From positions 1 to 64,000 of the forward strand of contig JAIBBQ010000011.1 in NCBI GenBank assembly GCA_019694595.1: 64,000 nt of DNA, written 5' to 3'. The DNA comes from Myxococcaceae bacterium. GTDB lineage: Bacteria > Myxococcota > Myxococcia > Myxococcales > Myxococcaceae. The notes beneath the pieces are model-generated. The model was not told the origin of the DNA and searched no databases. It saw nothing but the letters and a program-made list of their open reading frames with translations. Shown here in pieces: positions 24,601 through 59,390 of the stretch (position 1 is its first letter; each line of letters starts with the position of its first letter). The translations under genes and the position numbers were made by a program.

Positions 24601-27600
24601 ATGGCGCAGGTGCGTTTCCTCGAGCGGTCGCTGGAGTGGAGAGACGGAGAGTCGCTGCTCGACTGCCTCGAGCGGCACGGCGCCGACATTCCCTCGTCGT
24701 GCCGGTCGGGCGCGTGCCACAGCTGCCTCGTCCGGGTGACCGAAGGGCCGATCTCTCCCGTCGCCCAGCTGGGCCTCAAGGAGACCTGGAAGGCGCAGCG
24801 GCTGGCGCTCGCCTGCATGAGCACCACGCCCGAGGACGTCACCGTCGCTCCCAGCGACCTCTCGGTGCAGGTCTCCGCCACCGTCGAGGACAAGCGCGAG
24901 CTCGGGCGCGACGTGGTGCGGCTCAAGCTGCGGCCGGGCGCGCCGTTTCCGTTCCGCGCCGGGCAGTACGTCAACCTCACGCGCTCCGACGGGCTCACCC
25001 GCAGCTACTCGGTGGCGAGCCTGGAGTCCGACGGGGTGGTCGAGCTCCACGTGCGGGTGGTGCCCGACGGGCGCATGAGCTCGTGGGTGAAGGCCACCCT
25101 CAAGGCGGGGGACACCGTCTCGCTGCGCGGCCCCACCGGCGACTGCCTCTACGTCGAAGGGCGCCCCGACCAGCCGCTGCTCCTCGTCGGCACCGGCACC
25201 GGGCTCGCGCCGCTGGTGGGCATCGCGCGCGACGCCCTGGCCCAGAAGCACCGCGGCTCCATCACCCTGGTGCACGGCGGCCGCGGGCCGGACGACCTCT
25301 ACCTGGACCTCGAGCTGCGCCGGCTCGCCAAGCAGCACGCCAACTTCCGCTACCTGCCCGCACTGTCCCAGGGCGAGCCGGTGCCCGGCACCTTCCAGGG
25401 CCGTGTCGACGCGGTGGTGAAGCAGCAGTTCCCGAGCCTCGCCGGCTTCCGCGTCTTCCTCTGCGGCAGCCCGGCGATGGTGAAGGACGCGCGCGCGCTC
25501 GCCTACGCGCTTGGGGCGGCGCTCGACGACATCCTCGCCGACAGCTTCATCGCCGCGCCGCCGCCGAAGGCGCAGGAGCCCCACGCGCACGCGCTGCCGG
25601 TGCTGCCCGCGCACCCTCCGAAGAAGTTCGAGGTGAAGACCGGCACGCCGCGGCTGCAGAAGCTGCGCTTCACCGTGCAGGCGGCCATCTTCGCCGGCTT
25701 CCTGGTGCAAGGGCTCCTCTACTACCTGGCGCGCCTGCGCCCGGTGGGGTCGATGCTGCCCTTCATGGCGTACGACTCGCTCGGCCACCTCGTCGTCTCC
25801 TCGACGCTGGTGCTCTGGGCGACGATGTTCGCGCTCATCTTCGTGCTGGGCCGCTTCGCGTGCGGCTGGCTGTGCCCGCTGGGCTTCATCCAGGACCTGG
25901 GCGAGAAGGTGCTCAAGGCGCTCAAGGTGCCGCTGCGTCGGCCGGTGCGGCAGTCGAACACGGTGCGCTTCGGCATGGCGGCCATGGTGCTGGGCCACTT
26001 CGTGGTGATGCCGGTGCTCGCGGCGCCGGTGCGCGTCTGGCAGCTCGACTGGCTGTACCGGGAACCGTGGCTCCTGGGCTTTCCGTTCCGCGTCGGGCTC
26101 TTCGCGCTCGACCTGGTGGCGGTCTTCGTGGTGCTCGGGCTGGTGCTGCCGTACTTCTTCGGGCCGAGGCCGTACTGCAAGCTGGTCTGCGAGACCGGGT
26201 ACCTGATGGACCTGACCTCGCGCTTCGCGTTCGGCCGCATCCGCCGCAACGAAGGCTTCGAGCGCGACACCTGCCTCAGCTGCCAGCGCTGCACCAACAT
26301 CTGCCCGCAGGGCATCAACGTCTTCGAAGAAGTGCACCTCTTCGACCGCGTGGTGAACGGCAACTGCATCACCTGCCTGCAGTGCGTGAACACCTGCCCC
26401 AACGACACCATCGTCTACTCGCTGCGCAAGAAGGCGTCCGACACCAGCCGCGTCACCGGCTACCTCGCCGCGCTGCAGACCCGCGCCGAGGACCTGCCCC
26501 GCTACGCGCTCACCGGGCTCGGCGTCTTCGCGGGCGGCGCCTTCGGCTTCCTGGTGCTGCCGCCGTCGTACTTCCACACCTACGCGATGTTCGCGTCTCT
26601 CGGCGGGCTGACCGGCTTCCTCGCCTGGCGCGCGGTGGCCGCGGTCTTCGCGGGGAAGCTCGAGCCGCTGCTGCAGGGCGCCCCGGTCTCGCAGGTGGAA
26701 CGCGAGAAGGCGGCGCGCATCGTGCCGCTCACCACCGAGGAGCGGCTGGGGACCCGGGGCAAGGCCGCCCAGGGGCCAGGGCGGGTGCTCGCGGTGGCGG
26801 CGGTGGTGACGCTGGCGTCGGGCGCCGCGGTGTGGGCGCTCTGGCGGCACGTGCCGTCGCGCATCGGGACGCTCGACGAGCTGCCGTCGGCCTCGAGCTC
26901 GCCCGAGCAGCGCCGCGCGGCGGGCACCTTCTTCCTCGGGGTGCCGACCGAGACGTCGGCCGAGGTCACCCAGGCGACCTACGCGGGGCTGCGCGACGTG
27001 CTCGCCGACGAGGTGGGCGAGGCCAAGGTCTTCCGCGCCGAGAGCTACGGCGCGCTGGCCTACGCGGTGGAGCACGGCCGGGTGGACGCGGCGTTCCTGC
27101 CCGGCGCCTCGACGTACGCCCTGCTCAAGCGCACCCGGCTGCAGGTCGACGTGCTCGCCCAGGCGCAGCACCAGGGCGCCACCACGTACACCGGGCTCCT
27201 GGTGGCGCGGCCGGGCTTCGCCGCGACGACCGAGGCGCTGGTGGGCGCGCGGGTGGCCTTCGTGCAGCCCGACTCGCTGTCCGGCTACCTGGCGCCGGTG
27301 CAGTGGCTCAAGACGCGGGGCGTGCGGCTGTCCGACCTGGGCGAGGTCATCTTCAGCGGCACCCACGCGCGCGCGCTGTCGCTCCTGCAGTCGGGCCGGG
27401 TCGACGTGGCGGCCACCTTCGACTCGGTGGTGCGCGCCTCGCCCGGAGGCACCGAGCTCGTCGAGCTCGCCCGCTTCGAGAACCTGCCCAACACCTTGCT
27501 GGTGACCCGCCCGGGCATGCCGGAGGCCGAGCGCCAGCGGCTCCTGGAAGCGCTGCTGCGCATCTGGGCCGACGACGGCCTGCTGTCGGTGCGCCGCGCC

Positions 27601-27684
27601 CTGGCCGACGGCGCCGCGATGGACGCGCTGGTCCCCGCGTCGGTCGACGGCGTGCAGAGCGTGGGCGACTACCTCGAGGAGTGA
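24601..27684 (+). CDS. Ferredoxin-flavin reductase / NapH-like polyferredoxin / PhnD-like binding domain fusion
   Basis: This is a 1027-residue multidomain protein. (1) A plant-type 2Fe-2S domain has C34, C39, C42 and C72. (2) An FAD/NAD(P) reductase module (about 90-320) has RSYSVASLE and LVGTGTGLAPLVG. (3) A NapH/NosR-like membrane part (about 355-680) has CGWLCPLGF and YCKLVCETGY, then two 4Fe-4S motifs, CLSCQRCTNICP (about 558) and CITCLQCVNTCP (about 589). (4) After another helix (about 730-750) comes a PhnD/phosphonate-type solute-binding domain (777-1027), with LGVPTETSAEV, VDAAFLPGAS and GTHARALSLLQSGRVDVAATF. Counting helices places parts 1-3 on the cytoplasmic side and the binding domain in the periplasm. 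I infer electron flow from NAD(P)H through flavin and FeS centres, gated by or linked to a periplasmic ligand. All cluster cysteines appear intact. Confidence 0.88.
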   Translation: MAQVRFLERSLEWRDGESLLDCLERHGADIPSSCRSGACHSCLVRVTEGPISPVAQLGLKETWKAQRLALACMSTTPEDVTVAPSDLSVQVSATVEDKRELGRDVVRLKLRPGAPFPFRAGQYVNLTRSDGLTRSYSVASLESDGVVELHVRVVPDGRMSSWVKATLKAGDTVSLRGPTGDCLYVEGRPDQPLLLVGTGTGLAPLVGIARDALAQKHRGSITLVHGGRGPDDLYLDLELRRLAKQHANFRYLPALSQGEPVPGTFQGRVDAVVKQQFPSLAGFRVFLCGSPAMVKDARALAYALGAALDDILADSFIAAPPPKAQEPHAHALPVLPAHPPKKFEVKTGTPRLQKLRFTVQAAIFAGFLVQGLLYYLARLRPVGSMLPFMAYDSLGHLVVSSTLVLWATMFALIFVLGRFACGWLCPLGFIQDLGEKVLKALKVPLRRPVRQSNTVRFGMAAMVLGHFVVMPVLAAPVRVWQLDWLYREPWLLGFPFRVGLFALDLVAVFVVLGLVLPYFFGPRPYCKLVCETGYLMDLTSRFAFGRIRRNEGFERDTCLSCQRCTNICPQGINVFEEVHLFDRVVNGNCITCLQCVNTCPNDTIVYSLRKKASDTSRVTGYLAALQTRAEDLPRYALTGLGVFAGGAFGFLVLPPSYFHTYAMFASLGGLTGFLAWRAVAAVFAGKLEPLLQGAPVSQVEREKAARIVPLTTEERLGTRGKAAQGPGRVLAVAAVVTLASGAAVWALWRHVPSRIGTLDELPSASSSPEQRRAAGTFFLGVPTETSAEVTQATYAGLRDVLADEVGEAKVFRAESYGALAYAVEHGRVDAAFLPGASTYALLKRTRLQVDVLAQAQHQGATTYTGLLVARPGFAATTEALVGARVAFVQPDSLSGYLAPVQWLKTRGVRLSDLGEVIFSGTHARALSLLQSGRVDVAATFDSVVRASPGGTELVELARFENLPNTLLVTRPGMPEAERQRLLEALLRIWADDGLLSVRRALADGAAMDALVPASVDGVQSVGDYLEE

Positions 27685-27703: not shown

Positions 27704-29608
27704 TCACGGCGTCAGCCGCAACCACAGCACCGAGTGGGCGTCGACCGCGAAGGTGAGCTGGTTGTCGGGCCGGGTGTGGGTCTTGGTGATGACCACCGCG
27801 TCGGGGTGGTCGGGCGTGTTCACCGCGAAGGGCGAGCCGTCGACCGAGTTGACCCGCCAGGCGGTGCCGTCGCCCTTGCCGGAGAAGTGCGACGCGTCGA
27901 CCTTGAGGCGGTAGCGGTTGGTGCGCGAGCGGTTGACCGCGAACACGTTGAGCGCGCCGGTCTCGTCGATGGTGGCGGTGGCGAGCAGCGCGGCGAACGG
28001 CGAGGCCGCGGGACCTTCGGAGACGTTGTTCATCAGGTTGGCGCGCACGTGGTGACCTCCGCGCTCGAGCATCGCGCCCAGCGTCTCGAGGATGCGGGCG
28101 TGCGCCGACGGCACCAGGGCGTCGCCGAAGCTGCTCAGCACCGAGCGCGACCCGGCGGCGGTGAGCGTGCCGCCCTGGGTGTAGCCGAGGCGCTGGTGGA
28201 GCCCCCGCGCCAGCACCGACGCCATGTAGATGGCGTGCATCTGGGTCGCCGCCCAGTCCGTCAACAGCGTCTGCTCGCCGATGGCGCCGAACTCCGAGGC
28301 CGCCACGTACGGGCGCCCCGGGGTCTTGTTCACCGCGGCCACCAGCTCGCGCAGCTTGGCGCCTTCGTCTTCCTCGCCGCCCATGTGCACGTTCCACAGC
28401 TCGGCCGTGGTGCCCGCGGACCTCTGGAAGATGGTGTACGGGTGGGCGATGGCGCAGTCGAAGCGCTGGCCGCGGCGCGCCATGCCGGCGGCGAACTCCG
28501 GCCGGCCCCACGACGAGCAGACGTCGATGGTGGGGTCGACGCGCTTCATCGCCGCGACGAACTCGCTGAAGCCCGCGTGGTCGAGCGTGTAGCTCACCCG
28601 CAGCTTCGCGCCCGCCGGGGGAATGCGCCCGTGGGCGCCGTCGCCGAAGCCGACCTCGCCGGTGCCCACGTCGACGGTGAAGACGCGCTCGGTGCCGTCG
28701 TGGCCCGCGAGCGAGGCCACCCTGGTCCACGCGGCGCCGTCGACGGTGAGCGCCACGTCCTTGAGCGGCGGGTAGTGAATCTGGAACACCTGCGACGCGG
28801 AGCCGTCGCTGGTGGCCGGGGTGCGGTAGTCGCAGTCCTTGCCCAGGGGCTGGTCGTTCAGCCGCTGCCGGTGCTCGCCGTCGATGAACTGGTCGAGCGC
28901 CGCCGACTGCGAGGTGTCGTTCATCCAGTAGCGCTGGCCCGCGTAGTACGGCTCGTTGCCGAGCTCGAAGAGGTGGATGCCGTAGGGGGCAGGGTGCCCG
29001 TCGCTCGCGCGCACGTCGGCCCAGGCCACGCCGCCGTTGGGGTTGGTGCCCGCGGGGGCGTTGAAGTACTCGACGTAGTCGGCGGCATCGCGCGGGCTCG
29101 CGTTGACGAACGGGACCTGGATGTTGGCCTTGGCGCCCACCGCTTCCACGAAGCGCATGTGTTCGGCCGGGCCGTACGGCGTCGACTTCTGGGGCGCGGT
29201 GTCGAACACCCACGCGCCGGCCGCGTTCTGCGAACGGAAGGGCAGCACCTGGCAGCCGCGGTTGGGCCCGGTGGCGCGGGCGAGCGAGAAGAGGTTGGCG
29301 TCGGTACCGCCGGGCCAGCGCAGGAGCCCCACGCGGGCTTCCTGGGTCTGCGCCACCACCGCGGGGTCGGGTGCGCCCTGGTGCCAGGCGCCGAACGCCG
29401 ACTGCTCGAAGCGGTGGTTGGTGCCGGTGTCGTGCGGGCCCACCTTGGCCCCGAGCGCGGCGGCGTCGACGGCGAGCACCACGGTGCCGGCTGCGGGCGC
29501 GGCGGTGAGCGCTTCCTCGGGGAGCTGGGCGGGGTCTTCGGTTCCGTCGAGCGGGCCGCAGGCGGCCGCGAGCAGGACGGCGGAGGCGAAGTGGGCGGAC
29601 GATCGCAT
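27704..29608 (-). CDS. GH51-like alpha-L-arabinofuranosidase lipoprotein
   Basis: This 634-residue lipoprotein has the signal MRSSAHFASAVLLAAAC (lipobox AAC, then GPLDG). The ATG was chosen to give this signal. The body is a clan GH-A TIM barrel with the GH51-like motif GLLRWPGGTDANLF. The putative acid/base Glu is in FELGNEPYY and the nucleophile Glu is in VAASEFGAIG. A C-terminal beta domain follows (FAVNRSRTNRYRLKVDA). The predicted role is releasing arabinofuranose from extracellular polysaccharide. It is convergent with the redox fusion gene (19 bases between) and 3 kb from the GH43 enzyme, which could act on the same polymer. Confidence 0.8.
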   Translation of the reverse strand: MRSSAHFASAVLLAAACGPLDGTEDPAQLPEEALTAAPAAGTVVLAVDAAALGAKVGPHDTGTNHRFEQSAFGAWHQGAPDPAVVAQTQEARVGLLRWPGGTDANLFSLARATGPNRGCQVLPFRSQNAAGAWVFDTAPQKSTPYGPAEHMRFVEAVGAKANIQVPFVNASPRDAADYVEYFNAPAGTNPNGGVAWADVRASDGHPAPYGIHLFELGNEPYYAGQRYWMNDTSQSAALDQFIDGEHRQRLNDQPLGKDCDYRTPATSDGSASQVFQIHYPPLKDVALTVDGAAWTRVASLAGHDGTERVFTVDVGTGEVGFGDGAHGRIPPAGAKLRVSYTLDHAGFSEFVAAMKRVDPTIDVCSSWGRPEFAAGMARRGQRFDCAIAHPYTIFQRSAGTTAELWNVHMGGEEDEGAKLRELVAAVNKTPGRPYVAASEFGAIGEQTLLTDWAATQMHAIYMASVLARGLHQRLGYTQGGTLTAAGSRSVLSSFGDALVPSAHARILETLGAMLERGGHHVRANLMNNVSEGPAASPFAALLATATIDETGALNVFAVNRSRTNRYRLKVDASHFSGKGDGTAWRVNSVDGSPFAVNTPDHPDAVVITKTHTRPDNQLTFAVDAHSVLWLRLTP

Positions 29609-29673
29609 GCCCGATTGTCGCGGCGTGCCCCCGCCGCGCCCCGGCCCGTCCTGGGGCGTCGGTTGACAGCGTC

Positions 29674-29689
29674 CTGTCCGGGTGGACAG
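29674..29689. promoter_or_regulatory. Perfect 6-bp inverted repeat upstream of the GH51-like gene
   Basis: CTGTCC-GGGT-GGACAG lies about 65 bases before the GH51-like start codon and 29 bases from the ahcY terminator hairpin. Its symmetry and position fit an operator for a dimeric regulator of the arabinofuranosidase gene; no regulator is identified. A TTGACA (29663-29668) sits beside it on the plus strand. Confidence 0.3.
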
Positions 29690-29706
29690 CGGCCGCACAA
29701 CCCTTT

Positions 29707-32211: not shown

Positions 32212-34200
32212 TCATCGGACGTAGCCGAGAATGAACTCCGTGGTGGTGCCCGCCGGGCAGGTGCCGGTGGTGGAGTGGGAATGGAAGGCCCCCTGGAGGC
32301 ACCGGGCGAGGGGCCTGGGGGTGGCGCTGGTCTTCACGGTGGAGATGAACCCCAGCGCACCTTCGACCACCTGGCCTTCGCAGTTCGCCGAGGTGCTCAG
32401 GAAGTGGTTCACCCCGAAGAGGCAGCGGTTGAGCGCGGCGCGGTTGGTGCCCGCGGCCGAGTAGAGGCGAAACGGCCCGGCAGTGTCCCCGTTCTGGGTG
32501 CAGAGATACGGAGTGCCGCCGTACGGGGTGCAGCGCTCCTTCCAGTTGCCCTGGCCGACGAGTGCGTTCTTCTCGGCGGCGCTGGTGGTGGGCAGGAAGT
32601 CGCCGCCGGTCTCCTTCAGGCTGTAGACGGTGACGAAGGGGTCGGCCGCCTGGCAGCAGGCCTCGCCCGCGAGGTCGCAGGTGGCGTGGCCCGAGCGGTA
32701 GACGCGCACGCAGGAGGCGACGAGGTCGGTGTAGCGGGTGCCTTCTTCCTTGGTGGGCATCATCGCGCGGTCGAACTCCACGCCGTAGGTGTCGACCCAC
32801 TGCCGGCCTTTCAGGGGGGCGTTGGCGGGCTCGTACTCGAGACCCATGGAGCCGCCGCCCTGGGTGTCGGTCTGGGGCTGGGCGATGACCTCGTTCCAGC
32901 CGTTGAGGAAGAGGTAGTCGACGTGCTGGGCGAAGGCGGCCTCGAACTGCCTGCGCAGCGTGAAGCCTTCGAGCTTGCCGGAGGCCTGGAAGGGCACGCT
33001 GGCGAAGCCGACCTGGTAGCTCAGCGACACCGCGAGCTGGCTGCCGACCGGGCTGTTGGTGGTGCGCAGCTGGTCGCAGCTTCCGGTGGGGAAGTAGGTG
33101 GTGAATTCCCCGCTCGGAGTGCGGCAGGGGGACATGAAGGACCAGCGCCCGGCGGCGTACTTGCTGCCGTCCATGTTCCCCCACATCCACACCGCGGTGA
33201 CGTCGTTGCGGCCGCCGTTGGACTGGATGGCGTTGAAGAGGTCCTGGCGGCCCGGGTCGACCACGAACATGAGCTTCTTGCCCGTCTTGGTGTCGCGCAT
33301 CACCAGGTCGGAGAAGCGCGGGTCGTTGTAGAGGTCGAGATCCTTCGAATAGAGGTCGGCGTTGGCGGAGCCGATGTTGGCCCAGATGGCGAGCTGCGGC
33401 GTCACCACGCCCTGCGCGCGCAGCGCCGCCCACTCCTCGAAGAGCACCTCGGCGGGGCGCAGCTGGATGCCGTCGGAGAACGCGCTGAAGGTGTCGAGGT
33501 TGGTCGCGTCGATGAGCACGAAGTCCACGTCGAGCGCGCGCAGCTGGTCGGCGTGGAAGCGCGCCGCCTGGGAGATGTTGGGGCAGTCGGCGTAGACGCC
33601 GGTCTGGCCCGGGCGCGCGCGGTAGAGGCAGCTCGGCCCGAGCGACGGCGTCACGTGGTAGTGGAACGCGGCCGCGTTGTTGTACTCGCCGGGCGTGTAG
33701 AGCAGGTCGGAGACCTTCGCAGCCCCGTTGCTGCGCAGCACGTCTTCCACCGTGTTGACGGTCTGACCAGCGGCCTCGCGGCGCGCGCGCGCCTGGGCCG
33801 CTGGAGCGTCCCAGCCGGTGAAGAAGATGCCGATGCGGTGCGCGGGAATCGTCAGGTGGGCCACGCTGCCGCCACCCGAGCCGCCACCCGAGCCGCCGCC
33901 GCTGGACGCGGAGCCGCCGCCGCTGGACGCGGAGCCACCACCGCTGGATGCAGAGCCACCACCGCTGGATGCAGAGCCACCACCGCTGGATGCCGAACCA
34001 CCACCGCTGGATGCAGAGCCGCCGCCGCTGGATGCAGAGCCACCACCGCTGGATGCAGAGCCACCACCGCTGGATGCAGAGCCACCACCGCTGGATGCCG
34101 AGCCACCACCGCTGGATGCCGAGCCACCGCCGGAAGCGGAGCTGCCGCCATCGGGACATCCCAGGGCCACCACCGCGAGGACCAGGAGGGCAGGTCGCAT
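32212..34200 (-). CDS. Lipoprotein with long Ser/Gly repeat linker and glycoside-hydrolase-like domain
   Basis: This 662-residue lipoprotein has the signal MRPALLVLAVVALGC (lipobox ALGC). Residues about 20-110 are a spacer made of eleven SASSGGG-type heptads. The main domain (about 115-560) has HRIGIFFTGWDAPA, FVLIDATNLDTFSAF, LAIWANIG and LFLNGWNEVIAQPQ. This resembles GH71/GH99-like TIM-barrel hydrolases, where a WNE motif is common. The C-terminal about 95 residues have two Cys-containing repeats (LNRCLFGVNHFLSTSANCEG, LARCLQGAFHSHSTTGTCPA), similar to DUF5648-type or lectin-like modules. The substrate is unknown; the repeat spacer would hold the enzyme away from the membrane. Confidence 0.72.
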   Translation of the reverse strand: MRPALLVLAVVALGCPDGGSSASGGGSASSGGGSASSGGGSASSGGGSASSGGGSASSGGGSASSGGGSASSGGGSASSGGGSASSGGGSASSGGGSASSGGGSGGGSGGGSVAHLTIPAHRIGIFFTGWDAPAAQARARREAAGQTVNTVEDVLRSNGAAKVSDLLYTPGEYNNAAAFHYHVTPSLGPSCLYRARPGQTGVYADCPNISQAARFHADQLRALDVDFVLIDATNLDTFSAFSDGIQLRPAEVLFEEWAALRAQGVVTPQLAIWANIGSANADLYSKDLDLYNDPRFSDLVMRDTKTGKKLMFVVDPGRQDLFNAIQSNGGRNDVTAVWMWGNMDGSKYAAGRWSFMSPCRTPSGEFTTYFPTGSCDQLRTTNSPVGSQLAVSLSYQVGFASVPFQASGKLEGFTLRRQFEAAFAQHVDYLFLNGWNEVIAQPQTDTQGGGSMGLEYEPANAPLKGRQWVDTYGVEFDRAMMPTKEEGTRYTDLVASCVRVYRSGHATCDLAGEACCQAADPFVTVYSLKETGGDFLPTTSAAEKNALVGQGNWKERCTPYGGTPYLCTQNGDTAGPFRLYSAAGTNRAALNRCLFGVNHFLSTSANCEGQVVEGALGFISTVKTSATPRPLARCLQGAFHSHSTTGTCPAGTTTEFILGYVR
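33893..34123 (-). repeat. Eleven tandem 21-bp units in a lipoprotein linker
   Basis: Exactly eleven in-frame 21-bp copies encode the heptad SASSGGG. Nine copies carry GGATGC and the two proximal to the catalytic domain carry GGACGC, suggesting recent expansion of one variant. All copies are in phase, so slippage changes spacer length without frameshift. Confidence 0.95.
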
Positions 34201-34276
34201 GGAGGCGCACCGTATGCGCTTTCCCGGGCCCCGCGTGGCTCCCACGGGAAAATCGGGCAGTGATCGTTTGACCAAG

Positions 34277-54207: not shown

Positions 54208-54746
54208 GGCCGCACCCGGGTCTGGAGCGCGACCGACTGCATCACGCCGCCGCCGTCGTCCCACACCACCGTCACCCGAACGTTCACCACGCCGCCGGTG
54301 GTGAGCAGCCCCGCCGAGGCGTAGCTCTCACCCGACTCGAACGGAGGGTCGACGTCGACGTAGGCGATGTAGTGCTTGGCGTCGGGCGGGGGCTGGCCGC
54401 CCTGCAGCGGCAGGCCCTGGTAGTCGGTGGTGCTCAGCTTCTCGGCCAGGCGGCCGTCGACCGACCAGTAGAAGTCGCGGGTGGTCTGGTCGAGCGCCTT
54501 CACGTTGCCGCAGGCGTCCGACCCCATGCCGAAGATCGGCTGGCAGCCGCGGGAGCTGATCTCTTCCAGCACCCGGTCGGCGATGGTCTGTGCCTGCGTG
54601 CCCGACGACGAGCGGCGGTTGTACTTCACCGTCTCGCTCACCACCGCCATGGTGCCCAGCATGCCGGTGGTGAGCACCGCCATGGTGAACATCACTTCCA
54701 GCATCGTCATGCCGCGCCTCGTGGTGCGCATCGCGGTCGTCCTCAT
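54204..54746 (-). CDS. pilV: Minor pilin of the PilV family
   Basis: This 180-residue prepilin has TTRRG-MTMLEVMFTMAVLTTGMLGTMAVV: short basic leader, Gly before the cleavage site, Glu at position 5 and the long N-terminal helix. PilV/GspI-like proteins of this size belong to the tip-priming complex. ATG at 54746 overlaps the pilY1 stop (ATGA) and is preferred. An internal ATG at 54731 has GAGGA upstream and would give a shorter leader. Confidence 0.8.
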   Translation of the reverse strand: MRTTAMRTTRRGMTMLEVMFTMAVLTTGMLGTMAVVSETVKYNRRSSSGTQAQTIADRVLEEISSRGCQPIFGMGSDACGNVKALDQTTRDFYWSVDGRLAEKLSTTDYQGLPLQGGQPPPDAKHYIAYVDVDPPFESGESYASAGLLTTGGVVNVRVTVVWDDGGGVMQSVALQTRVRP

Positions 54747-57700
54747 GGAGGCATCTTCCCGTTCTTGACCGCTTCCCAGAGCAAGATCCTGGGAGCGCCG
54801 ACGCCGTTGGCACCCGCGGTGTTGTTGAAGGTGTTGCCGCCGCGCATCTTCACCTGGCCGTCGATGGTCGAGACCATCAGGTGCTCGTCGTAGACCACCG
54901 GCGCCGACACCACGTGGGTGTTGAGGTCGGTGCCCGAGCCCGCCTGCGCCACACCGGCCGCCTGGCTGTACGCGTAGAACTTGCCGCCCTTCACCTCGCT
55001 CAGGTTGCACGCATCGGCCGCGGTACCGACCGCGGTCGCCGTGTAGACCGAGCCTGCCGACAGGGTGACGCCGCCCCACACCTGCTGGCCGTCGTCGAGC
55101 TTCTGCGCCCAGCGGAACCGGGCGAGGTCGGAACAGGTGCCACTCGGGGTCGGGTCGATCAGCGACAGCACGTAGTAGTTGGTCGCCGTGGCGTCGTTCG
55201 GGTTGTCCGGGTTGTCCGAGGTGCCGACGTAGAGCTCGACCTGCGAGCCGTCGTAGCGCACCGCGATGGGCGAGTAGATGCCCTGGAGCGCCGCCTGGGC
55301 CGCGGTGGTGGCCACCGAGGCGTTCTGGGCGACGTTGGCCATGAGCATCGTGCGCACGTCGGCGATGGGGCAGAAGCCGATCGCCTTGCCCGCCGACCGG
55401 GTGGTGTCCACGTCGTAGAAGTTCAAGCGGTAGATCTTCCCGTTGGTGGTCGCCACATACGCCACGTCGTACTTGCCGTCGGGCGCCGAGCCAGCAGTCG
55501 AGCCGCGCACGTCGAGCACCGCCGGGGACCCGCCGATGCCGAAGTTGGTCTCCGAGGTGGGCGTGATGCCCGTGTAGACCTGCGTGTCGTTGGCCGAACC
55601 GGTGGCCAGCGCCGCGCCGGTGCTCAGGTCGATGGTGTAGACCGTCGCCGCAGTGTTGGTGTTGGGCACGTAGTCCGTCGCCACCAGCGCCACCCACTTG
55701 CCGTCGATGGCGTTGTTGTTGCTGCCGATGCGCACGATGGGCGGCGAGTGCCGCGAGCCCAGCGTGTCCATCGGAGGCATGGGACTGGTGCCGCCGTCAC
55801 GGCCGACCCGCAGCTGGCTCGACGCCGAGACGCCGCGTCCGAGCTGGTACTCCCAGAGGGCGACCGGGTTGTTGGGGTCGTCGACGTTCAGGGCGAAGAC
55901 CGCGTCCTGCCGGCTGCCCGTCGCGGAGACGATGACCGTCATCGCACCCTTGCGCTTGATGGTCGCGGTGTCGCGCACCCACGGACCGCCGACCACGCCG
56001 CCCAGGTCCACGTCGGCGACCGACGGGGTGGCGTCGAGCACCGCCTTGTCGAGGGTGATGTTCTTCAGGTACCCCACGTAGTGGTTGCGGTAGTCGTCGA
56101 TGAGCAGGCGGGGCAGGTAGGCGAACAGCTCCGCACCCGAGCCGTACTTGCGGGTGGTGAGGCACGCCGAGGTGTGGGCGAAGTACCCGCGCTGCTCGAC
56201 GTTGCTGCTGGTGCAGCTGTCGTCGCCGAAGAGCACCGTGCCGGTGTCGAAGGCGTGGAAGAAGCCCAGGCTGGTGCCGACGTAGGTCACCGTGTTGCGG
56301 GTCGAGCCGATGCCCGAGGTCGCGTACGTGCGGTAGGCGGAGGCTTCCGACACCGACACGCGGTTGAGCCAGTCGGGCGCCACCGGCGGGCCGACGATGG
56401 CCGGGGTGGACAGCGTCACGCCGCCCATGGGCCACGCGCGCTCGACGTCGACCGCGCCGCCCTGCACGAAGCAGTCACCGGCGTCGCAGCGCAGCGCCAC
56501 GCCCTGCTTGTCTTCCCACCCGAAGAGCCAGTCGCGCAAGAACACGCGGTCCTGGGCGTTGCACACGCCGTCGCGGTTCAGGTCGTAGAGGTAGTCGGGC
56601 TTGCCCACCGGGTTGATGACGTTGCAGACGTTGCCGCCACCGTCGGTGGGGAACGCCGGCGTCCCGTGGTTGGTGCTCGCGAGCTCGGTGGTGACCGAGA
56701 TGGTGCCGCCGTCGACGCCCAGGGTGAGCAGCTTGCGCGCCTCGAGCTGCGCCGGGCCGGCGTCCGCCAGCCACGCGCCCGCTTCCCAGCGCACGTTGCG
56801 CGACGGAGCCGTCGGGGTCTCGGGGTCGTAGAAGGTCTCGAAGTAGAAGTGACCGCGGAGCATCAGGTCCTTCTTGTTGTCGTAGGTGCGGCGGGTCGGC
56901 GCCGGCGACAGCTGCTGGCCCGGCGTCTCGTACTGGCCGTAGGTGATGGCGTTGGCCATCGGCGTCACCGACGACTTGGCGTAGTTGCCCGCGCGCAGCG
57001 CCTGGTACCCGACGTCGACGTTGGTGATGGTCGGGGTGCAGTTCTCGTTGTAGCTCTCGAGGTCCGCCTTCCAGCAGAGCTGCGAGCCGAGGTAGCCGAG
57101 CGACAGCAGGTCGATGTCGGTGGTGACCGCGTTCGACGGGGTGAAGATGACCGGCACCCAGTTGATGAGCGAAGGGTCGTTGGGAATGCAGACCCCGTTG
57201 TCGCAGACCTTGCAGTCCACCGCGACCGAGTAGCTGATCTTCGGCAGCGGCACCGTGCTGCAGGCGCCGGCGACGAGCTCGGTCCACGTGCCGCGCGACA
57301 CGTCGTCGGCGCGGGTGAAGCGCACGCTGGAGATGGTGAAGTCCTCGGCGATCGACGGCGAGATGTCGCCAGTCAGCACCGACGACTGCACGTAGCCGCC
57401 GTTCTTCTTGTCGATGAGGAAGACGATGTCGTTGAAGTCGCGGTCACCGCCACCGGTCAAGTCTTCCACGCCGAAGATCCACCGCGTGGGGTCGGTCGTC
57501 GGCGCACCGACGAAGATATGGGGCATGGTGCCGCGGGGGTCGGAGATCACCGCGTTCGCTTCGTGCGGCATGGTGAGCCCGAAGCCGCCCGACGCCGGCG
57601 CCGCCGCGAGGCGGGTGAGCGCCGCGCTGTCCAGCCAGCCGTCGAGGCTGGTGCCCGTCTGGCTGCAGTGCGCACTGCCGGTGTAGTTGCAGCCGATGTC

Positions 57701-58888
57701 GAGCTTCTTGATCGACGAACCCGCGACCGGCGTGTTGCCTTCGAGGTCCAGGTTCAACATCGTCTTGGTGAAGAAGACGTTGATCGGCGATTTGATGGCC
57801 AGACGGCAGCCGTTGTAGACGCCCGGCGCGCGGATGAGGCACGTCTGGTTGGGCGAGTTCGCCGAGTAGTAGACGATGGAGAAGAAGACGATCTCGCGGT
57901 TGCCGGGGATCGTGCCCAGCGAGACCGTGCGGTCGCTCGAGGTGATGCCCGGGTCGGGGTTCGAGCCCACCGCGTTGCCCAGGGCGTCGTACGCGCTCAC
58001 GTCGTAGTCGGGCACGCCGTCGTAATTGCTGTTGCTGTCGCTGACCGGCGCCATGCTGTTCCACACCGAGTTGTCGGTGTCGTCGTCCATCAGCAGGAAG
58101 ACCAGGCGGCCCAGGCCCTTGAAGCCGTTGGCGGTCGCCGCCGGCTCGAGCAGGTTGGGAATGTGGGTGTAGGTGCCGTTGTCCGAGTTGGTGTTCGCAC
58201 CGCTCGGCGCGTCGGTGCCCACGATGAAGTTGGTCGAGCCCGACGGGTTGGTGGCGAAGGTGTTGGTGCAGCTGTCGTCGAGCGCGATGTCGGGCTGGTA
58301 GAACTTCTTCGCGCCGGCGAAGAAGCTCCCGCCGTCGGGCCGCAGCACGGTGCCGGCGTCGATGCTGAACTGCAGCGAGCTCGAGGTGCAGCGGCGCCCG
58401 CCGGACCCGCCGACGTAGGCGCGCGGACTGGTGGCGCGCACTTCCTGCACGTTGAAGAGGTCTTCGTGGAAGTCGGCGATGCCGTTGTTGTCGGAGTCGA
58501 CGAGGACGTCGTCGGTCGAGTCGTTCGGCGTGCCGCGGGTGTCCACGTACCCGCGCGAGACGAGCGCGTCGTAGAAGAAGTAGCCCACCGAGTGAGACGC
58601 ACCGGCGGACTCGAACACGAAGCTCATGTCGAGCCGCTGGTCGAAGGGCACGGTGATGTTGTTGGGGTTGAACACCGTGCGCGCGGTGTTCACCTGCACG
58701 CCCTTGGGCGAGATGTAGTTGACGCCCGTGGCCTGCGAGAGCGCGCCGCCGTCGGCGGTGAGGTCCGGCTGGCGGTCCTGGGTGAGGTCGTTGCGGCACA
58801 GCGCCGCGGTGCCGGCGTCGAAGGCGCCGGCATCCTGAGCGAGCGCCGAGGCGCCCACCAGCAGACAGAGCGAGAGAACGATCTTCAT
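54743..58888 (-). CDS. pilY1: PilY1-like pilus tip adhesin
   Basis: This 1381-residue secreted protein has a signal peptide (MKIVLSLCLLVGASALA, then QDAG). The N-terminal half contains calcium-loop motifs (DSDNNGIADFHE at 131-142; DSNSNYDGVPDYD) and a DUF4114-type segment (GVEDLTGGGDRDFNDIVFLID). Near residue 765 is another EF-hand-like loop (DLNRDGVCNAQD). The C-terminal third is the PilY1 beta-propeller (GTSLGFFHAFDTGT, LFAYLPRLLIDDYRN, ATPSVADVDL, VSATGSRQDAVFALNV). It is expected at the tip of type IVa pili with minor pilins, promoting extension and adhesion. It lies 3 bases after the cytochrome gene. Confidence 0.92.
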   Translation of the reverse strand: MKIVLSLCLLVGASALAQDAGAFDAGTAALCRNDLTQDRQPDLTADGGALSQATGVNYISPKGVQVNTARTVFNPNNITVPFDQRLDMSFVFESAGASHSVGYFFYDALVSRGYVDTRGTPNDSTDDVLVDSDNNGIADFHEDLFNVQEVRATSPRAYVGGSGGRRCTSSSLQFSIDAGTVLRPDGGSFFAGAKKFYQPDIALDDSCTNTFATNPSGSTNFIVGTDAPSGANTNSDNGTYTHIPNLLEPAATANGFKGLGRLVFLLMDDDTDNSVWNSMAPVSDSNSNYDGVPDYDVSAYDALGNAVGSNPDPGITSSDRTVSLGTIPGNREIVFFSIVYYSANSPNQTCLIRAPGVYNGCRLAIKSPINVFFTKTMLNLDLEGNTPVAGSSIKKLDIGCNYTGSAHCSQTGTSLDGWLDSAALTRLAAAPASGGFGLTMPHEANAVISDPRGTMPHIFVGAPTTDPTRWIFGVEDLTGGGDRDFNDIVFLIDKKNGGYVQSSVLTGDISPSIAEDFTISSVRFTRADDVSRGTWTELVAGACSTVPLPKISYSVAVDCKVCDNGVCIPNDPSLINWVPVIFTPSNAVTTDIDLLSLGYLGSQLCWKADLESYNENCTPTITNVDVGYQALRAGNYAKSSVTPMANAITYGQYETPGQQLSPAPTRRTYDNKKDLMLRGHFYFETFYDPETPTAPSRNVRWEAGAWLADAGPAQLEARKLLTLGVDGGTISVTTELASTNHGTPAFPTDGGGNVCNVINPVGKPDYLYDLNRDGVCNAQDRVFLRDWLFGWEDKQGVALRCDAGDCFVQGGAVDVERAWPMGGVTLSTPAIVGPPVAPDWLNRVSVSEASAYRTYATSGIGSTRNTVTYVGTSLGFFHAFDTGTVLFGDDSCTSSNVEQRGYFAHTSACLTTRKYGSGAELFAYLPRLLIDDYRNHYVGYLKNITLDKAVLDATPSVADVDLGGVVGGPWVRDTATIKRKGAMTVIVSATGSRQDAVFALNVDDPNNPVALWEYQLGRGVSASSQLRVGRDGGTSPMPPMDTLGSRHSPPIVRIGSNNNAIDGKWVALVATDYVPNTNTAATVYTIDLSTGAALATGSANDTQVYTGITPTSETNFGIGGSPAVLDVRGSTAGSAPDGKYDVAYVATTNGKIYRLNFYDVDTTRSAGKAIGFCPIADVRTMLMANVAQNASVATTAAQAALQGIYSPIAVRYDGSQVELYVGTSDNPDNPNDATATNYYVLSLIDPTPSGTCSDLARFRWAQKLDDGQQVWGGVTLSAGSVYTATAVGTAADACNLSEVKGGKFYAYSQAAGVAQAGSGTDLNTHVVSAPVVYDEHLMVSTIDGQVKMRGGNTFNNTAGANGVGAPRILLWEAVKNGKMPP

Positions 58889-58891
58889 CGG

Positions 58892-59371
58892 TCAGTTCCC
58901 CTTCTGGCCAGCGCCAGGGCTGGTGACGGCGCCGTTGTTGGGTCGCGTGGTGCCGCCCCCGGGAGGCGGGGTGGGGCGGTGCTTCTCGGCCTCGACCGAG
59001 GCCTGGAGGTCGGCGAGCTGCCGCTCCTTGAGCGGCAAGGGCTCGGGGAACTTCGCCGCCACCAGCCAGGTCTGCAGCACCTGGAGCTCGCGCTCGCTCA
59101 GGTGCCCGGGGCGGCAGCCGGTGAACTTGGCGCCCAGACCCGGCTTGGCCAGCCACTCGGCGACCTGCGTCGGGCTCTTGCGCGACATCACCTCCACCAG
59201 GTCGGGCGCCCGCAGCCGCGAGGGCCGGGGCTTCGCCTTCTCACCCGGGCGCGGCGGCGAGAACGCGGTGTGGCAGCGGCTGCAGTTGTCCGCGTAGATG
59301 CGCAGGCCGTCGTTGCCGTCGGCCGCCAGGACCGGGAGGCTCACGAGGGTACAGAGCAGAGCGAGTCGCAT
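58892..59371 (-). CDS. tfcP: TfcP-like noncanonical cytochrome c
   Basis: This 159-residue secreted c-type cytochrome has a signal peptide (MRLALLCTLVSLPVLA) and a single heme motif C30-S-R-C33-H34. Where class I cytochromes carry the distal Met, this protein has Cys86 in FTGCRPGHLSERELQ, consistent with His/Cys ligation. The tail is Pro/Gly-rich and disordered. In Myxococcus xanthus, TfcP, an unusual His/Cys cytochrome encoded with a minor pilin/PilY1 set, promotes calcium binding by PilY1.1. This gene directly precedes pilY1, so the same role is inferred. ATG at 59371 has AAAGGG upstream; a GTG at 59389 is less likely. Confidence 0.85.
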   Translation of the reverse strand: MRLALLCTLVSLPVLAADGNDGLRIYADNCSRCHTAFSPPRPGEKAKPRPSRLRAPDLVEVMSRKSPTQVAEWLAKPGLGAKFTGCRPGHLSERELQVLQTWLVAAKFPEPLPLKERQLADLQASVEAEKHRPTPPPGGGTTRPNNGAVTSPGAGQKGN

Positions 59372-59390
59372 GGTGGTGTGCCCTTTCACT

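Follow-up and report, generated by a model that had tools for sequence, protein, structure and literature searches.

The window analysed here, a 64,000-nucleotide stretch of a Myxococcaceae bacterium contig (JAIBBQ010000011.1), contains a reading frame that joins an NAD(P)H reductase, a NapH-like membrane polyferredoxin core and a PhnD-type binding domain. What might a protein do that combines an electron donor, a membrane electron-transfer core and a receptor in one chain?

Domain content of the fusion protein

The gene (24601..27684, forward strand, as are all features of the protein given below) runs in one unbroken frame from the ATG at 24601 to the stop codon at 27684 and encodes 1027 amino acids. 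The initial annotation had described a single-polypeptide fusion, and its coordinates proved exact. The Pfam matches follow from the N-terminus in the order Fer2 (residues 9-74), FAD_binding_6 (93-184), NAD_binding_1 (195-298), Fer4_5 (402-440, in two stretches), a 4Fe-4S dicluster (~554-603) and PF12974 (780-1014; 121 bits, above the gathering cut-off of 27). The same full-length architecture is present at five other loci (L034-L038), and all cofactor motifs are invariant across the six fusion proteins.

The reductase module comprises a plant-type [2Fe-2S] domain (residues 1-84, 24601..24852, PF00111), in which Cys 34, 39, 42 and 72 are invariant in the six members, an FAD-binding domain with the motif R134-S-Y-S (residues 90-185, 24868..25155, PF00970) and an NAD(P)H-binding domain with invariant GTGTG and CGSP motifs (residues 190-318, 25168..25554, PF00175), bearing out the reductase assignment made at the outset. 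The closest solved reductase is GcoB (5ogx), by sequence (157 bits) and as a Foldseek structure match to the FAD/NAD part (34% identity). The module shares the [2Fe-2S]-FAD-NAD order of GcoB/BenC-type ferredoxin reductases (PRK05713 family), but those enzymes are soluble, whereas the reductase here is joined to a membrane core. Its scores lie below the curated PRK05713 and BenC-type cut-offs (162 against 338 and 119 against 430 bits), with the cofactor motifs present. AF2 pLDDT values were ~75-94 for the FAD/NAD and PhnD domains and lower for the [2Fe-2S] domain.

Sixteen of the 19 cysteines are accounted for by the [2Fe-2S] site, two membrane CxxxC motifs and two [4Fe-4S] motifs, leaving C22, C182 and C288 outside cofactor motifs. 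The [4Fe-4S] motifs (C558/561/564/568 and C589/592/595/599; residues 558-600, 26272..26400, PF13237 and PF13187) follow the membrane core as in NapH and NosR (PMC5928378, PMC8238504), and their eight cysteines are invariant in the family. Since C599 is the final cysteine of the protein, the PhnD domain is Cys-free. Judging by these motifs, the cofactors are probably all bound, and the sequence supports a predicted chain of NAD(P)H, FAD, [2Fe-2S] and two [4Fe-4S] clusters forming one cytoplasmic assembly on the membrane core.

Membrane core and topology

Seven helices were predicted from hydropathy and two AF2 models: TM1 (residues 351-378, 25651..25734; hydropathy and AF2), the TM2 region (~396-417, 25786..25851; alignment and AF2), TM3 (453-474, 25957..26022; alignment and AF2), TM4 (494-520, 26080..26160; AF2), TM5 (629-652, 26485..26556; AF2), TM6 (658-682, 26572..26646; alignment and AF2) and TM7 (726-749, 26776..26847; hydropathy and AF2), which leads into the periplasmic domain. 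The initial annotation had counted one more helix after the ferredoxin motifs, but hydropathy and AF2 give three (~629-652, 658-682 and 726-749). As three is still odd, the periplasmic placement of the PhnD domain is unchanged. Lysine plus arginine counts per loop are 7, 14 and 7 on the predicted inside and 1, 2 and 0 on the outside, which fits an N-in topology. Helix number and positive-inside charge thus agree with the earlier placement, with the reductase and Fe-S clusters probably cytoplasmic and the PhnD domain probably periplasmic.

The first membrane cysteine motif, CGWLCP (residues 421-426, 25861..25878, PF12801), lies on the cytoplasmic side, and its cysteines are invariant in a 29-sequence core alignment. 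The second, CKLVC (residues 526-530, 26176..26190; alignment), is followed by E and not P. The expectation of CxxxCP-bearing segments therefore held for the first motif (C421-P426) and failed for the second (C526-E531): in place of the NapH/NosR-type CxxxCP pair, all six members have one CxxxCP and one CxxxCE. Three histidines are also invariant in the fusion family and lie toward the periplasmic side by predicted topology: His396 at the periplasmic end of TM2, His466 in TM3 and His659 at the TM5-TM6 periplasmic turn. We can only conjecture that they bind heme, quinone or metal.

The earlier likening of this membrane part to NapH and NosR units is upheld by its NapH-like core and two 4Fe-4S motifs. 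It shares with NapH, NosR and RdhC (PceC) a four-helix core with two cytoplasmic-side CxxxC motifs (PMC5928378, PMC8238504), but differs from them in its three extra helices, its second motif (CxxxCE), its own NAD(P)H reductase, its PhnD-type periplasmic domain and the absence of an FMN-binding domain. CcoG/FixG/RdxA cupric reductase is likewise a polyferredoxin; it has membrane helices and two 4Fe-4S clusters and ends in a periplasmic domain (PMC7558416), but that domain is Ig-like and no electron donor is fused to the protein. Profile scores fell below the cut-offs for NapH (TIGR02163, 70.5 against 213 bits; NF007013, 69.2 against 234), NosR (NF046105, 23.4 against 1000, with no FMN_bind match in Pfam) and CcoG/FixG (TIGR02745, 21.5 against 316.7), which places the core in the superfamily but in none of these three families. 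The full-length model had a pTM of only 0.46 and no significant PDB match was found for the core model, so the membrane electron step is structurally unsupported.

Among the sequences compared, the clade closest to the fusions in the tree consists of planctomycete NapH-TPR proteins. The NapH-TPR proteins of Planctomycetota and Acidobacteriota have the same core and the extra helices, but a TPR region replaces the PhnD domain, the N-terminal reductase is missing and the first motif is CxxxCH; the three family-specific histidines are not generally conserved in them (alignment). One other Myxococcota genome (L098) encodes a TPR-type core lacking the reductase. Read most simply, these differences reflect the exchange of modules at either end of a shared core. 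The proteins with a NapH-like core, extra helices and C-terminal TPR (L039-L049, L086, L090 and L098) constitute a widespread and apparently undescribed family.

The PhnD-type receptor domain

The C-terminal PF12974 domain (residues 775-1027, 26923..27681) was anticipated to be a complete PhnD-type fold. Its Pfam score agrees, and in Foldseek the AF2 model of the domain matched the arsenate sensor ArrX (6x8w) and the phosphite binder PtxB (5jvb), with a TM-score by target length of 0.81 for each; phmmer matches included HtxB, PtxB and AioX. Along one side of their pockets, AioX and PhnD have Ser161, Ser163, His192, Tyr88 and Tyr131 (AioX numbering) in common (PMC5908839). By phmmer alignment the counterparts in the fusion are S892, S894, H922, Y816 and Y863 (27046..27366), invariant in all six members, although identity over the domain drops to 37% in the most distant of them. 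On the opposite side of the pocket, AioX Cys106 corresponds to Pro834 and PhnD Thr128 to Leu893 (Val in L038), and the AioX Asp210 position is Asp or Glu in the fusion family. With the five residues kept and Pro at the Cys106 position, the pocket looks oxyanion-type, without the thiol chemistry of arsenite binding. It thus looks, at the residue level, built for an oxyanion to which no specificity can be assigned. PF12974 pockets can also drift to other ligands; BstB, of the same fold, binds sterols (PMC10942540). The domain content, conservation, modelled PhnD fold and pocket conservation of the fusion are directly supported.

Domains of this fold are known in several roles. AioX/ArrX, PtxB/HtxB/PhnD and the TtrS/ThsS domains share it together with the five oxyanion residues (PMC5908839); AioX and ArrX are sensors rather than transport components (PMC5908839), and the PhnD-like domains of the histidine kinases TtrS and ThsS are covalently attached sensors of tetrathionate or thiosulfate (PMC5408782). 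The fusion differs from these systems in its output module, where an electron-transfer core takes the place of a kinase or transporter. As the initial annotation held, the binder does not appear to be a transport component: no ABC transporter was found among the examined neighbours of the gene, and the six genomes share no neighbourhood. Scores on the PhnD model TIGR03431 (66.8 against 261 bits) and the phosphonate-transport binding-protein model TIGR01098 (81.8 against 112) are below the cut-offs. An ABC-transport role was rejected on the strength of the examined neighbours. Being Cys-free, in a protein with no heme- or FMN-binding domain among its Pfam matches, the PhnD domain looks like a receptor and not an electron carrier.

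Two minor observations concern this domain. The Archangium members L034, L035 and L036 carry an insertion of ~25-45 residues, which contains IREAGA.TEV, before the DSLSGY segment, and other PF12974 proteins are encoded in the same genome as the window protein.

A possible receptor-controlled electron relay and its rivals

The reading that we favour, tentatively and at somewhat less than even chances, is that the protein works on its own as a membrane polyferredoxin of the NapH/NosR/CcoG superfamily, driven by NAD(P)H, and that the covalently attached periplasmic oxyanion receptor controls its electron output. Electrons would pass from NAD(P)H to FAD, the [2Fe-2S] cluster and the two cytoplasmic [4Fe-4S] clusters, and from there through the CxxxC membrane core to quinone or to a bound metal or periplasmic acceptor. 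When the PhnD-type clamshell closes on a small oxyanion, the signal would travel via TM7 to the core, a form of control modelled on PhnD-like domains acting on histidine kinases such as TtrS. The path beyond the clusters, the gating and the identities of ligand and acceptor are proposed by analogy only. Transfer into the CxxxC core is suggested by NapH, for which electron exchange with quinones is presumed (PMC5928378), and by CcoG, which reduces Cu(II) (PMC7558416). The gated conduit or sensor proposed in the initial annotation agrees with the conserved oxyanion pocket, the kinase precedent (PMC5408782) and the AioX/ArrX sensors (PMC5908839); a metal chelate as ligand might be proposed by analogy to CcoG only. 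Against receptor control, no allosteric path from receptor to core is visible, and TM7 with the linker, through which the signal would pass, evolves faster than most of the protein.

A more specific idea is that the receptor itself acts as the switch that sends NAD(P)H electrons into the membrane or periplasm, bypassing kinases and transcription; it is possible, and we hold it with less confidence, at about one chance in three. If true, such a ligand-gated relay would amount to sensing by one protein, and the architecture suggests that in some bacteria electron flow may be directly under the control of an outside anion. PhnD-type domains are known from transport receptors and as inputs of signalling kinases, and NapH-type cores as components of electron chains encoded by several genes. 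Here donor, membrane core and receptor share one polypeptide, and purifying this one protein would allow two questions to be tested: how electrons pass a CxxxC membrane core, for which the PDB yielded no structural counterpart, and whether electron flow can be controlled directly by a periplasmic ligand.

Direct reduction of a captured substrate by the fusion protein is a serious rival, although on balance we consider it unlikely. The PhnD domain would hold a reducible oxyanion or metal chelate, and the core would reduce it on the periplasmic side with electrons from NAD(P)H. The related NapH-like units of NosR, PceC and NapH serve periplasmic reductions (PMC8238504, PMC5928378), and CcoG offers a precedent for reduction within the same superfamily (PMC7558416). 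The receptor is moreover covalently tethered, no separate periplasmic reductase gene lies beside the fusion, and the three invariant histidines near the periplasmic side are absent from most TPR-type relatives. However, the periplasmic side of the fusion shows no recognised redox cofactor. The oxyanion reductases known so far depend on Mo, heme or Fe-S centres, and ligands resembling phosphate cannot be reduced. The lack of a redox cofactor signature in the PhnD domain makes control of electron flow likelier than reduction in the pocket.

Could the protein instead be an oxidoreductase that passes NAD(P)H electrons to quinone or to a partner protein, with a PhnD domain that serves only for docking and binds no small ligand? 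In the nearest relatives the core ends in TPRs, the usual protein-docking modules, so the C-terminal slot is swappable. Mere docking would not need an oxyanion pocket that is fully kept at low overall identity, and we regard this reading as improbable. Marginally less probable still is a CcoG-like metal reductase, in which Cu(II) or another metal would be reduced at the CxxxC pair and the PhnD domain would be an accessory sensor of a chelate or anion. The layout of CcoG is comparable: it combines two Cu sites with two 4Fe-4S clusters and has an Ig-like C-terminal domain in the periplasm (PMC7558416). Its physiological electron donor is unknown, whereas here a reductase is fused on. Against this stand the low score on the CcoG model, the second membrane motif without Pro and a true CcoG encoded separately in the same genome (415 bits on TIGR02745). 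Lastly, the joining of separate genes by sequencing or assembly error has a negligible probability and was ruled out by five independent members: these carriers are MAGs and the assembly that holds the window is broken into 394 contigs, but the domain junctions are the same and in frame in all six genomes, which span four genera and two families.

Distribution and conservation of the architecture

Whole-genome searches recovered the full-length fusion, at 51-73% identity, in five other Myxococcota MAGs: three of Archangium, one of Myxococcaceae and one deltaproteobacterial (68, 73, 70, 72 and 51% identity to the window protein). This recurrence argues that the fusion is neither chance nor the joining error considered at the outset. 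The six cores form one clade (support 100/100), and branching within it broadly follows taxonomy.

In the closest pair (L034/L035), where dN/dS is measurable, the fusion is under purifying selection: ratios are 0.00-0.17 for the reductase, membrane, ferredoxin and PhnD modules (0.09 for the PhnD domain), and TM7 with the linker, at 0.52, is among the fastest-evolving parts. More distant pairs gave higher ratios by the simple counting method (for example, 1.0 for the PhnD domain between the window protein and L038), which we do not read as lost constraint because this method and the strongly GC-biased codons underestimate dS at distance.

The pairing had been called unusual, and domain co-occurrence is indeed rare. 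A pattern scan of 84,980 species (one genome each) found only five MAGs with the PhnD fusion; it used two peptide patterns and may have overlooked distant fusions that lack these. Searched directly, 246 Planctomycetota, 297 Acidobacteriota and 148 Nitrospirota genomes and a plasmid collection yielded NapH-like and PhnD-like matches as separate proteins only, and no fusion. Across the searched genomes, the PhnD fusion was seen only in the six Myxococcota proteins. In the papers retrieved by a literature search, the architecture is nowhere described. These results confirm a rare, conserved and real domain architecture, a new combination made from known modules.

Gene neighbourhood and other features of the window

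A gene for a glycosyl hydrolase family 43 lipoprotein-like protein lies 31 bases upstream of the fusion on the same strand. Downstream, on the opposite strand, are a gene at 27704-29698 (-) and then S-adenosylhomocysteine hydrolase. The product of the former is a secreted-looking protein of 664 amino acids with no Pfam match at 1e-4. As far as the contigs reach, no neighbourhood is conserved among the six loci, which fits a single-protein system. An anti-phage defence role was rejected, there being no PADLOC match.

In other Myxococcaceae, in a stretch of about 1-3 kb at each of four loci (L009, L010, L012 and L013), stand-alone homologues of the reductase module (43-48% identity) adjoin a truncated globin. 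At L009, L010 and L013 there is also an Rrf2-family regulator, whose best scores are on the NsrR and RirA models, and we consider the combination of reductase, truncated globin and Rrf2 regulator a candidate split NO-detoxification operon. At a further such locus (L015), only the reductase is clear. Because the fusion genomes do not show this globin/Rrf2 operon, we rejected a link between the fusion and NO detoxification. Among 60 genomes, two carried the fusion and eight a stand-alone reductase; this exclusivity is not significant, and the pattern was not used as functional evidence.

Elsewhere in the window, a long Ser/Ala/Gly-rich repeat of the SASSGGG type follows a lipoprotein-like signal at 33900-34250; the window has similar linkers (GGGASGGG) at its start and at 23.1-23.3 kb. 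At 54743-59389 (-), an exported-looking protein of 1381 amino acids has no NCBIfam match; beside it is encoded a small CxxCH-motif protein that resembles a c-type cytochrome.
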